Positions 22,859 through 26,831 of a DNA stretch of 56,172 nt are shown here, piece after piece; position 1 is the first letter of the stretch; each line of letters starts with the position of its first letter. Position numbers and translations under genes: made by a program. Source of the stretch: Methanobacteriota archaeon (GTDB taxonomy: Archaea; Thermoplasmatota; Thermoplasmata; Methanomassiliicoccales; UBA472); assembly GCA_012729095.1 (NCBI GenBank), contig JAAYDU010000013.1:1-56172 (forward strand). The letters are read 5' to 3'. Below the pieces are notes generated by a model. That model was not told the origin of the DNA. It saw only the letters and a program-made list of their open reading frames with translations, and searched no databases.

Positions 22859-23380
22859 ATGAGCATGGTGGAGGAGCTGGTCTCCGGGATACTGCGCAGC
22901 GAGGAAGGTTTCCGCGAGGCGCTCCGGCACATACTCGAGGAAGAGCTGAAGATATCCGTCCCCGAGTTCTGCGAGAGGACCGGCCTTTCACCCAGCACCA
23001 TCTACAAGATACTCCAGGAGCAGCGCGAGCCGAACCTGCGGACCGTGAGGGCCGTCATCAAGGGCGTCAGGAAGCTGGACACGAATCCAGGCGGCGAGTT
23101 CATCGGGGTGATCGCCTCACGCCCGGTCCTGAACAAGATAGAGGAAAGGATGATGAGGATAGGCGAGCGCAACGTCAGGGTCAAGGAGTACCCGGCCAGC
23201 ACAATGGAGGACGCCATCATCGCCGCGGTGAAGGCGGAGAGGGATGGCGCGCTAGCCTTGGTATGCGCGCCGATAGTCGCTCCCACCGTTGAACAGATCG
23301 TGAGGATCCCGGTATCCGTGGTGGTACCGAAGGACAGCATGGTGCGGGCGATCGAGATCGCCGCGTCCAAGGTGCTGTGA
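22859..23380 (+). CDS. HTH regulator with C-terminal sensor-like domain
   Basis: A 173-residue protein. Residues 32-60 form a Cro/XRE-like helix-turn-helix (VPEFCERTGLSPSTIYKILQ). The C-terminal half (about 78-173: GVIASRPVLN..., SVVVPKDSMVRAIEIA) has the alternating beta/alpha layout seen in PrpR-N-like sensor domains; this is weak. It starts four bases after the reductase stop, so it is in the thioredoxin operon and may report redox or metabolic state. It abuts the convergent ABC gene at 23381. Confidence 0.7.
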   Translation: MSMVEELVSGILRSEEGFREALRHILEEELKISVPEFCERTGLSPSTIYKILQEQREPNLRTVRAVIKGVRKLDTNPGGEFIGVIASRPVLNKIEERMMRIGERNVRVKEYPASTMEDAIIAAVKAERDGALALVCAPIVAPTVEQIVRIPVSVVVPKDSMVRAIEIAASKVL

Positions 23381-24136
23381 TCACTCCGGTCGGACCATCA
23401 TCTCCAACTTGGCCAGGATCTCCTTCCTGAGATTGGCGAACTCCATGGACGCCCTCTCCCTGGGGCGCTCCCATGGTATGTCGTATATCTCCGTTATGCT
23501 GCTCGGTCTTTCGCCCATCACCACGATGCGGTCTGCCAGGAACACTGCCTCGTCCACGGAATGGGTGATGAAGACCACTGTCTTCTTGGTCTCCTCCCAT
23601 ATCCGCAGAAGCTCCTTCTGCATCATGTTGCGCGTCTGGGCGTCCAACGCTCCGAACGGCTCGTCCATAAGCAGTATGTCAGGTTCATTGGCCAACGCTC
23701 TGGCTATCCCCACTCTCTGCTTCATCCCCCCTGACAGCTCATGAGGGTGGGCGTCCTCGAAGCCCTCCAGTCCGACCAGCTCTATGAGCTTCTGGGATGT
23801 CTCGTGCCTTGTCTTGACCGGTACCTTGCGCAGCTCCATTCCGAACTCGATGTTCTTCCTTACGCTCCTCCAGGGGAACAGGGCGAACTCCTGGAACACC
23901 ATCCCGCGGTCCGATCCCGGACCCTTTATTATCTTGCCGTCAAGGGATATCTTCCCGCTGGTCTGCGTGTCCAAACCGGCGATTATCCTGAGTATGGTGG
24001 TCTTTCCACAGCCGGAAGGGCCAAGGATGCAAATGAACTCACCCTTTTTCACATCCAGGGTGAAATCCTCTATGGCCACCAGCTCCCCCTCTTCCAGTGG
24101 GAACGCCTTTCTCAGTTTTTCGATGGAAAGCATCAT
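23381..24136 (-). CDS. NitT/TauT-type ABC transporter ATP-binding protein
   Basis: A 251-residue ATPase: Walker A GPSGCGKTT, signature LSGGMKQRVG, Walker B ILLMDEPFGALD and the H-loop in FITHSVDEA. The subclass is SsuB/TauB/NrtD, importing sulfonates, taurine, nitrate or related organic anions. ATG 24136 overlaps the permease stop by four bases. It is the last gene of the binding protein, permease, ATPase order on the minus strand. Confidence 0.92.
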   Translation of the reverse strand: MMLSIEKLRKAFPLEEGELVAIEDFTLDVKKGEFICILGPSGCGKTTILRIIAGLDTQTSGKISLDGKIIKGPGSDRGMVFQEFALFPWRSVRKNIEFGMELRKVPVKTRHETSQKLIELVGLEGFEDAHPHELSGGMKQRVGIARALANEPDILLMDEPFGALDAQTRNMMQKELLRIWEETKKTVVFITHSVDEAVFLADRIVVMGERPSSITEIYDIPWERPRERASMEFANLRKEILAKLEMMVRPE

Positions 24137-24990
24137 TTCAAACCCATCCTCTTCATCACCCTTCTTTCCACCCACCCGCTAAGCTCGGTGGTAGACAGCC
24201 CCAGGATGGAGAACACGATAAGTCCCGCGAAAACCTGGTCGAAACGGTTGACCTCGGTCTTGAACTGAACGTACTGTCCCACGCCCCCTCCGACCGCTCC
24301 CAGGAACTCCGCGGCCACAACGCACATCCAGCCTATGCCCAGTCCTATGCGGATACCGGTCATGATGTACGGCACCGTAGAGGGTATGATCACCTTGATG
24401 AACATGTCCCCTCTCTTCGCTCCCAGGGTCCGAGCGGCATCCATCAGTATGGGCTGGATGCTCCTCACACCGAAGATTATGTTGGACAGGAGCGGGAAGA
24501 ACACGCCTATGAATATCACGATGATCGGGCCGACCTTGCCTCCCATGGCTATGAGCAGCAGTGGCGCCCATGCAATGGGGGCGATGGGGCGGAACACCTC
24601 CACCACCGGTTTGCTGAAGCTCTCCACCGTCTTGGAGAACCCCATCACAAGTCCCAAAGGCACAGCCAGCACGAACGCCAGCGCGAATCCCCAGGCGACG
24701 CGTATCGAACTGGTGACGACATTGTCCCACATGGTGCGGCCAGTGGTGATGTCCGGCCTGATGAAGGAGTCCAAGAGGGCCTCGAACACGATGTCAGGGG
24801 GTGGAAGGAATGGCGTGTCGATCAACAAGGACAATCCCCACCACACGCCGATGAACACTGACAGTGAAAATATCGTGATGATTATCGTCTTGACGAACTG
24901 GATCCTGCGGTCCGTCTTCAGACTGACATCGGATGGCCTGATGAACGTGATCAAACCCCTCTTTATCGTACCTATCGTGATCATGGCCAT
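24133..24990 (-). CDS. NitT/TauT-type ABC transporter permease
   Basis: About 285 residues with six spans and the cytoplasmic EAA-loop (DAARTLGAKRGDMFIKVIIP) that docks with the ATPase. SsuC/TauC-like. ATG 24990 and ATG 24984 are both possible; GGGAAGGAAAGG lies just upstream. The binding protein gene ends 62 bases upstream with a T-tract between them. No cargo-specific residue can be read. Confidence 0.9.
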   Translation of the reverse strand: MAMITIGTIKRGLITFIRPSDVSLKTDRRIQFVKTIIITIFSLSVFIGVWWGLSLLIDTPFLPPPDIVFEALLDSFIRPDITTGRTMWDNVVTSSIRVAWGFALAFVLAVPLGLVMGFSKTVESFSKPVVEVFRPIAPIAWAPLLLIAMGGKVGPIIVIFIGVFFPLLSNIIFGVRSIQPILMDAARTLGAKRGDMFIKVIIPSTVPYIMTGIRIGLGIGWMCVVAAEFLGAVGGGVGQYVQFKTEVNRFDQVFAGLIVFSILGLSTTELSGWVERRVMKRMGLK

Positions 24991-25023
24991 CCTTTCCTTC
25001 CCAATGTCATTGGATAAAGGTGA

Positions 25024-25036
25024 AAAAATTAAAAAG
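25024..25036 (-). terminator. T-tract between binding protein and permease genes
   Basis: On the minus strand TTTTTAATTTTTT lies 17 bases after the binding-protein stop. It may end part of the transcripts, so that more binding protein than membrane subunit is made. Confidence 0.4.
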
Positions 25037-25052
25037 GTTTGGGGCGCGGGCC

Positions 25053-26153
25053 TCACAGCGCCTTGACGGTGAAACCGTTGGACGTGAAGAAGTCCAGGAA
25101 CATCAGGTGCTGTATGGACGACACTCCTGGCGTGGCGATGACCTTCCCGTTGAAATCATCCAAGGTGGTTATGTCCTCACCGACGAATATGGCCGATCCA
25201 ACCATGTTCACCTGGGCGATGACGGTTATGTCAACCCCGCCGTTCAGATGGTTCAGTATCGCCGGGGGGCTTCCCAGGTATCCGATGTCCACGTTCCCCG
25301 CGGCGAAGGCGTTCATGACCGCGCCGCCGTTGACGTACGGGCCGCCAACGGACGTCTCCGTTGCCACGCCATACACCTCGAAGAGGTCCTTCCCCTCTCC
25401 CCAAAGGGTGTCGTTGTTGGCGATCACCCTCGCGAACTGGTGAAGATCGCCTATGAGGTATCCCAGCTGTACCGGGTTCCCCGCGTTGAGAATGGTGCTG
25501 CTTGGTTCGATGTCCATGGCCTCTTCCAGCAGGGAGGAGTTGAAGTAGTTGCTCACAAAGTCCTCCACATCCGCGTATCCCTGGGTGCCCAGTGCGGACC
25601 CCTGGATCAGGTCCAGATCGATGTATTTCTGAGTTATTACCTCCATCCAATCCTCGAAGGACTCCGTGATGTTGTAAGTGAACACGATGTTGGAAACGGA
25701 GCTGTTAACGACCGCGGTGGAGCGCTGAGAGAACTCCGCTCCTATCTGCAGCAATTTGGTATAGTTATCTCCGTCCGGGTCAGCTATGGTGTCGACGATC
25801 CACTCTGTCGCCACCATGTGGGCCTTGAGCGTCCTGAGAGCGAGGTCCCGGTTGTTCTCAAGGAATCCATTATCCACCGCGACCACGCAGCATGGATGGT
25901 CCTCCCATATATCATCGGACCATTTGAATATGGTCGCTGAGCCACTGAGAACGGCATCCGAAGCGAACGGTTCCCACGTTATCGCACCATCTATCTGCCC
26001 CGCGATCAAAGCCTCCTTCTGAAGGTTGGGGCCGATAGGGGTCCAATATACTACCTTATCATCATCGCTCCCCCCCATCATGGTAGCCGCCAAGGCGCCC
26101 ACTATGACTATGGCAACGAGAACGACCGCGATTATCACTAACTTTTTATCCAC
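25053..26153 (-). CDS. Circularly permuted NMT1/SsuA-like ABC substrate-binding protein
   Basis: A 366-residue exported binding protein with an N-terminal membrane anchor (residues 1-25, no lipobox). The halves of the canonical fold are in swapped order. Residues 33-120 match what is normally the second half: ALIAGQIDGAITWEPF, then NNRDLALRTLKAHM...EW. Residues 228-366 match what is normally the first half: QLGYLIGDLHQFARVIA, AAGNVDIGYLGSPPAI, and DFNGKVIATPG with SSIQHL. The last residues (SNGFTVKAL) would run into the first strand (KVVYWTPIGP). GTG 26153 has GGTGG upstream. See findings. Confidence 0.85.
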   Translation of the reverse strand: MDKKLVIIAVVLVAIVIVGALAATMMGGSDDDKVVYWTPIGPNLQKEALIAGQIDGAITWEPFASDAVLSGSATIFKWSDDIWEDHPCCVVAVDNGFLENNRDLALRTLKAHMVATEWIVDTIADPDGDNYTKLLQIGAEFSQRSTAVVNSSVSNIVFTYNITESFEDWMEVITQKYIDLDLIQGSALGTQGYADVEDFVSNYFNSSLLEEAMDIEPSSTILNAGNPVQLGYLIGDLHQFARVIANNDTLWGEGKDLFEVYGVATETSVGGPYVNGGAVMNAFAAGNVDIGYLGSPPAILNHLNGGVDITVIAQVNMVGSAIFVGEDITTLDDFNGKVIATPGVSSIQHLMFLDFFTSNGFTVKAL

Positions 26154-26381: not shown

Positions 26382-26831
26382 ATGTTCGAGCTTAACGTGG
26401 TAAGCAACACTCCCCTCACTCCCATAGAGGACCTCAAGGAGGCCTCTCTGGAGTTCCTCAAGCAGATCGGTTACATATCCAAGGGGTACGACCCCAAGAC
26501 GGATGTGGACAATATCCAGGAGAGCATTCCCTACCGTCTCTTCACCGAATGCCTGCTCGGCAACCTGAACCGGGTATGGGCGGTGGAGGAGCTTTCCGCG
26601 TACCTGGGCACCACCAAGCCCACCGTCTACCGCCACCTCAACAAGCTCAAGGCCATCGATGTCCTGGAGGACGTGTCCATCGACATCGGAGGGCAGAGGA
26701 AGAAGGGTTACCGAATCCGGTACGGGGACCTGGGAAAGGCCTGGAGCTTCACCGAGGCGAACGTCGATCTGGCAATGCAGTCGTACCGCAAGACGGTGGA
26801 GCACCTGCAGGGTCTGGCCAAGGAGGTGTGA
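26382..26831 (+). CDS. Winged-helix regulator divergent from the ABC importer
   Basis: A 149-residue protein. Residues 55-100 read as a winged helix-turn-helix (WAVEELSAYLGTTKPTVYRH, NKLKAIDVLED, then a wing with RKKGYRIRYG). The N-terminal 45 residues and C-terminal helix probably dimerise. It faces the importer operon across a 228-base spacer holding repeats, so local control is likely. TCTTAATA at 26343-26350 fits its own promoter. A small protein gene follows at a two-base gap. Confidence 0.75.
   Translation: MFELNVVSNTPLTPIEDLKEASLEFLKQIGYISKGYDPKTDVDNIQESIPYRLFTECLLGNLNRVWAVEELSAYLGTTKPTVYRHLNKLKAIDVLEDVSIDIGGQRKKGYRIRYGDLGKAWSFTEANVDLAMQSYRKTVEHLQGLAKEV

Follow-up and report, generated by a model that had tools for sequence, protein, structure and literature searches.

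Circular permutation of an NMT1/SsuA-type binding protein and its probable repeated rotation within one archaeal importer operon

The 56,172-nucleotide stretch of DNA analysed here (the window) encodes an NMT1/SsuA-type (type II) binding protein that is almost certainly circularly permuted. In archaea, the gene for this importer component has probably undergone several rotations through tandem fusion in frame, from the ordinary order to the order seen in the window (A-B), from A-B to B2-A-B1, and from A-B back to the ordinary order, with the anchor, the invariant residues and the operon kept throughout. The permutation has a long history and a wide distribution, and the window order is one of three rotations within Methanomassiliicoccales. 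In nature, a circular permutation is usually met as a pair, a parent and its permutant; the unusual feature of this family is that its rotations are repeated and reversed. The features of the locus are summarized in Table 1.

Table 1. Features of the permuted binding-protein gene and its operon in the window (residue numbers refer to the binding protein).
Feature	Coordinates	Strand	Basis and remarks
Binding protein, NMT1/SsuA-type, almost certainly circularly permuted, order anchor-A-B1-B2	25053..26153	-	366 aa, GTG start
Hydrophobic N-terminal anchor/signal and acidic linker, residues 1-31	26061..26153	-	Sequence; predicted helix 3-26
Segment A, residues 32-215, equivalent to the second half of the ordinary protein but placed first	25509..26060	-	NMT1_2 profile 146-240
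HPCC motif, residues 86-89	25887..25898	-	Invariant in window-type and ordinary-order alignments
Linker STILNAGNP, residues 219-227, joining A to B1	25473..25499	-	Site of the ordinary protein's termini
Segment B1, residues 228-304, the first part of the ordinary protein	25242..25472	-	NMT1 profile from position 30
GDLHQ motif, residues 235-239	25437..25451	-	D and H invariant in both alignments
Segment B2, residues 305-366, containing N..GS	25056..25241	-	Alignments, segment order
ABC permease, TauC/NtrB/SaoP-like	24133..25056	-	Pfam BPD_transp_1; TauC 163 bits, below cut-off
ABC ATPase, SaoA/NrtCD/TauB-like	23381..24175	-	Pfam ABC_tran; SaoA 278.7 bits, cut-off 360
Divergent HTH regulator gene	26382..26831	+	Conserved beside window-type and rotated-back Methanomassiliicoccales operons
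HTH_3 regulator gene, converging on the operon	22859..23380	+	Pfam; neighbour clusters

The binding-protein gene is one unbroken reading frame (26153..25053) with zero internal stops. Permease and ATPase genes follow it directly, as in an ABC importer of the TauABC/SsuABC/NrtABC class, and the permease frame overlaps its 3' end. McrA was found in the host genome, which marks it as that of a methanogen and whose closest named relative is Methanomassiliicoccaceae archaeon UBA472 (85% over the best segment). Relatives of the converging HTH_3 regulator adjoin window-type operons in Archaeoglobi, Methanoperedens and Thermoplasmata, and this gene is possibly a shared regulator of these operons.

Family profiles recognize the two halves of the protein in swapped order. 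Positions 146-240 of Pfam NMT1_2, its second half, align to window residues 27-121, and positions 30-118 of Pfam NMT1, its first half, align to residues 275-362; the NMT1_2 match (78.2 bits against a gathering threshold of 24.7, E 1.1e-21) falls in two stretches. TIGR01728 also matches in two stretches (E 2e-24), the best of which pairs residues 274-351 with profile positions 38-118. SaoX profile positions 144-218 align to residues 48-119, and the TauA sequence (6ssy) aligns in swapped blocks, residues 272-349 to 37-115 and, weakly, 42-72 to 134-168. Both parts are homologous to the parent and stand in exchanged order, which is the mark of a circular permutant, and no single N-to-C colinear profile match to the window protein was returned by Pfam, NCBIfam or the TauA comparison. 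Family cut-offs were missed for SsuA (TIGR01728, 86.4 against 163.5 bits), TauA (TIGR01729, 32.2 against 304 bits), SaoX (55.6 against 300), SaoA (278.7 against 360) and SaoP (129 against 295). The first-pass annotation, made from the letters and their translations, had proposed that the NMT1/SsuA-type fold is circularly permuted here and that the importer operon is otherwise normal, and the swapped profile matches bear this out. The second-half motifs that it placed first, for example AGQIDGAITWEPF at residues 51-63, lie at the positions it gave, and the cut is at the place it named, between ...SNGFTVKAL and KVVYWTP. The observation that it named as fatal to the proposal, a colinear HMM or structural match, is absent for the window protein in Pfam, NCBIfam and Foldseek.

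An intact fold is predicted for the window protein by AF2 (pLDDT 93.6, pTM 0.87), and its rotated-back ortholog L109 is also modelled well (pLDDT 91.9, pTM 0.85). After rotation, the two models match in the kind of each secondary structure element and in how these follow one another along the chain (13 elements in B, 15 in A). For L109 both kinds of match are colinear: Pfam matches it over residues 72-277, and Foldseek against the PDB retrieves TauA, NrtA, SsuA, CmpA and Thi5 (best E 5.5e-20, to TauA; TMt 0.81). Sequential comparison of the window model by Foldseek gave nothing comparable; its poor matches to glutamate receptors (TM about 0.27) are put down to the limits of sequential alignment, and homology to these receptors was rejected. 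Judged via L109 and the rotated order of elements, the window protein would have the two-lobed TauA/SsuA-like fold. The new chain ends would lie in lobe II, in the step from a helix to the strand after it, with a short linker bridging the original termini. An N-terminal anchor segment is present in all 67 window-type rows and would tether the protein to the membrane; a fair reading of the fold is that it would now hold the other lobe. A small ligand would be bound in the cleft and passed to the permease, as in ordinary relatives.

The window order is shared by relatives. The window protein has matches in 58 of 61 genomes (the host and 60 relatives), the window order is carried by 67 distinct rows, and in the named collection it occurs in other Thermoplasmata, Archaeoglobi, Methanoperedens, Mnemosynella, Methanoregulaceae and a few Bacillota. 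Two points speak for an assembly or binning artefact that wrongly joined two adjacent binding-protein genes: the draft genome that holds the window is in 72 contigs, and tandem copies occur in some relatives. Such an artefact is exceedingly improbable: orthologs at 84, 68, 67 and about 50% identity, all of them full-length and colinear, occur in independent assemblies, the order is shared with Archaeoglobi, Methanoperedens and Bacillota, and the protein is predicted to form a single high-confidence fold. An artefact was rejected on the ground that independent relatives carry the same order; the survey of close relatives suggested in the first-pass annotation, most of which have this order, upholds its argument against an assembly error.

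Some individual reading frames in the collection deserve separate mention. One window-type gene (L024:2587-3682, genome G035) is split by a frameshift into overlapping frames of 331 and 165 aa, through sequencing error or decay. A 533-aa frame in L007/L027/L086 was rejected as a real extension, since it is extended upstream and its likely start, MDKKIAII, lies inside. Two surface-like proteins of about 900 aa (L028:2669-5380 in G014 and L030 in G017) have an N-terminal window-type A-B domain that has lost HPCC; the former runs on into fibronectin type III domains (Pfam), and no permease or ATPase genes were found beside either.

Segment profiles (A, residues 32-215; B1, 225-304; B2, 305-366) were used to search reading frames, and three segment orders were obtained. 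Counted over the loci retrieved, in which some genomes appear twice, the window type A-B1-B2 was found at 91 loci, the ordinary order B1-B2-A at 22 and B2-A-B1 at 20. Segment A is last in ordinary-order relatives, where the end of B2 runs on into it, and B1 contains both GDLHQ and VDIGYLGSPP. Ordinary-order loci come mostly from Desulfobacterota and other former deltaproteobacteria, and also from Dehalococcoidia, Asgard archaea and one Syntrophomonadaceae. The B2-A-B1 loci that were assigned to genomes all belong to a single family of Methanomassiliicoccales (f2). Within the same order of archaea, ordinary-order proteins are encoded at three distinct loci in three genomes (L021, L022 and L023), two of which recur as the named records L109 and L090; all three have the same divergent regulator and operon as their window-type relatives. 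The orthologous operon in Methanomassiliicoccales is found with all three rotations, A-B1-B2, B2-A-B1 and B1-B2-A.

The residues follow the rotation. Seventeen residues invariant in the window type are invariant at the rotated positions of the ordinary-order alignment. In B these are (window/ordinary) D236/D54, H238/H56, G276/G93, M280/M97, G294/G111, P297/P114, N316/N133, G319/G136, S320/S137, P342/P159 and Q348/Q165, and in A they are W60/W217, H86/H243, P87/P244, C88/C245, C89/C246 and V90/V247. The set covers the D and H of GDLHQ, N..GS, the W of WEP and HPCC. In each of the three orders, nearly every row retains the D.H, N..GS, W and HPCC motifs, and bacterial and Asgard relatives have the same invariant residues in the ordinary order. 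Related genomes also encode ordinary-order NMT1-type paralogs without HPCC (L154, L155).

Permutation by duplication is a known model (PMC3320104), and we infer that it applies here: a gene doubled in tandem and in frame would yield a new order once its outer parts were lost. By this route an ancestral ordinary B-A protein would have become the window-type A-B, which would later have become B2-A-B1 in one family and, separately, B-A again in a few genomes. In-frame tandem fusions that look like intermediates were found in two rotation types. The 709-aa fusion L026:4297-6426/L071 has the order A-B-A-B, and NMT1_2 runs colinearly across its inner junction (residues 257-464 to profile 27-245); HPCC and GDLHQ are intact in its second copy but lost from its first, where HPGS and GDINQ stand in their place. 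The inner junction is only 2 residues long, which makes this protein an example of the intermediate type and not the direct parent of L021-L023. The 757-aa fusions L149:3777-6050 and L150:3984-6257 have the order B2-A-B1-B2-A-B1, and both copies keep their motifs, with HTCC in place of HPCC. The junctions between segments also appear to carry scars. B2 and A are separated by -2 to 2 residues in 17 bacterial and Asgard ordinary rows, by exactly 8 in L021, L022 and L023 (KQSGTPGD, KLDGTDGD and VQKGAETG) and by 8-12 in 20 B2-A-B1 rows, and the A-B1 linker is 5-14 residues across 65 window-type junctions. KQSGTPGD and KLDGTDGD resemble the window-type C-terminal tail VKLxGT followed by the acidic N-terminal linker, and the junction residues fit what tandem fusion of window-type genes with later trimming would leave behind. 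An alternative route, in which the gene was split into halves that were then rejoined in the opposite order, would lead to the same end product (PMC3320104). This is quite unlikely: fused tandem genes were found, and an unsystematic scan of the loci brought no separate half-gene to notice except the frameshifted L024.

The direction of change within Methanomassiliicoccales was judged from two trees. The binding-protein tree, built on re-circularised sequences with 107 distinct rows as input, requires 5 changes among the three orders. In it, B2-A-B1 forms one clade (97/84) beside the window-type L043, and L021-L023 lie within the Methanomassiliicoccales clade (100/98) at an unresolved fork. The permease and ATPase tree is independent of the rotation; it places window-type Thermoplasmata outside Methanomassiliicoccales (99/91) and nests the operons of L021-L023 among window-type ones with moderate support (99/96, 72/95 and 60/92). 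On these operon genes, a single clade of all B-A rows was rejected (AU p 0.003), and L021-L023 as one clade was not rejected (p 0.90). If L021-L023 were retained ancestors, the window type would have arisen several times with the same cut, a reading for which the open fork at the base of Methanomassiliicoccales leaves room. It is unlikely in view of the window-type Thermoplasmata outside the whole order, the nesting of L021-L023 among window-type operons, the rejection of one B-A clade, and the 8 extra residues between B2 and A, two of these insertions having GT like window-type tails, against -2 to 2 elsewhere. Because of the scars, the trees and the shared regulator and operon, the ordinary order within Methanomassiliicoccales is very probably secondary, that is, re-acquired. 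The deep A-B lineages may be of separate origin. Window-type proteins of Methanoregulaceae/Methanomicrobia (L120, L122 and L128) have long branches; L120 and L122 fall among ordinary-order rows in the binding-protein tree, which omits L128, and this placement perhaps reflects a separate permutation or a long-branch effect.

Among known systems, the closest are TauA, SsuA, NrtA and CmpA. The window protein would share their two-lobed fold, to go by the match of L109; it has the same operon partners, and both its halves match NMT1_2/NMT1. The window protein differs from them in its rotated segments, in scores far under the SsuA and TauA cut-offs and in an invariant set of its own that includes HPCC and D.H. 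SaoA is the nearest named ATPase model and a segment of SaoX matches, but all three Sao proteins fall below curated cut-offs and the SaoX profile is matched rotated; a literature search on SaoX found nothing relevant. A natural circularly permuted binding protein has been described in Treponema pallidum, TpMglB-2 (Tp0684), for which a ‘Type Ic / Cluster Bc’ was proposed (PMC4990184). According to the accessible part of that source, it resembles the window protein in being a tethered ABC-importer binding protein, cut inside a lobe and widespread in its group, but it has the type I (sugar-binding) fold and belongs to another family, and one alternative order is described there, with no mention in that part of rotation back or fused intermediates. 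The window protein does not fall in type I (cluster B), as it matches NMT1-type profiles and L109 matches TauA, SsuA and NrtA. DNA methyltransferases and saposin/swaposin also combine tandem fused intermediates and permuted orders within one family (PMC3320104). They are not transport proteins, and in contrast to these duplication families three orders occur here in one orthologous operon, where scars give the direction. No permuted NMT1-type protein was found in the open literature (subscription papers lay outside this scope), which agrees with the first-pass annotation, whose author knew of none; TpMglB-2, of another fold, is the nearest precedent.

The operon and the fold point to importers of the kind that take up sulfonates, nitrate, bicarbonate and thiamine precursors. 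The cargo might tentatively be a small sulfonate, with coenzyme M as the first candidate because these methanogens mostly lack its synthesis. The host's McrA is in keeping with a need for coenzyme M. ComD, an enzyme of coenzyme M synthesis, exceeded its cut-off in only 9 of 61 genomes (G000-G060) and did not do so in the host genome, a pattern consistent with widespread dependence on coenzyme M. Coenzyme M use is not expected in Desulfobacterota, Dehalococcoidia or Asgard archaea, and HPCC relatives occur in all three, which argues for a cargo broader than coenzyme M. The importer is also present in ComD-bearing genomes, so missing synthesis does not predict it. There is about an even chance that the cargo is instead a methylated compound or another small anion. 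Beyond the HPCC relatives in non-methanogens, this is favoured by MtrH/MtgA-like and RACo (corrinoid-activation) genes that adjoin window-type operons in Thermincola and Geoglobus (L094:600-3799, L104:1060-3896), and by MtaA/CmuA-like genes near the same Thermincola operon. Such neighbours are, however, limited to a few Bacillota and Archaeoglobi loci and are not common to Methanomassiliicoccales operons, and the ligands of the nearest structural matches are sulfonates, nitrate or bicarbonate. An Rfam search of the window and ten loci returned tRNAs only and no riboswitch hinting at the cargo. Coenzyme M synthesis is reported to be missing in the rumen strain ISO4-H5 (PMC5011839), and published Methanomassiliicoccales MAGs seem to lack it (PMC7824343); the accessible portions of these two sources name no transporter.

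With three orders in one operon, together with intermediates and scars, the duplication route can be tested step by step. The finding also raises the question of why an importer can vary its chain order and the lobe that carries the anchor. Where annotation relies on a single colinear profile match, such proteins would appear as two partial matches. If the cargo is coenzyme M, the importer would fill a gap in how methanogens that do not synthesise coenzyme M obtain it.
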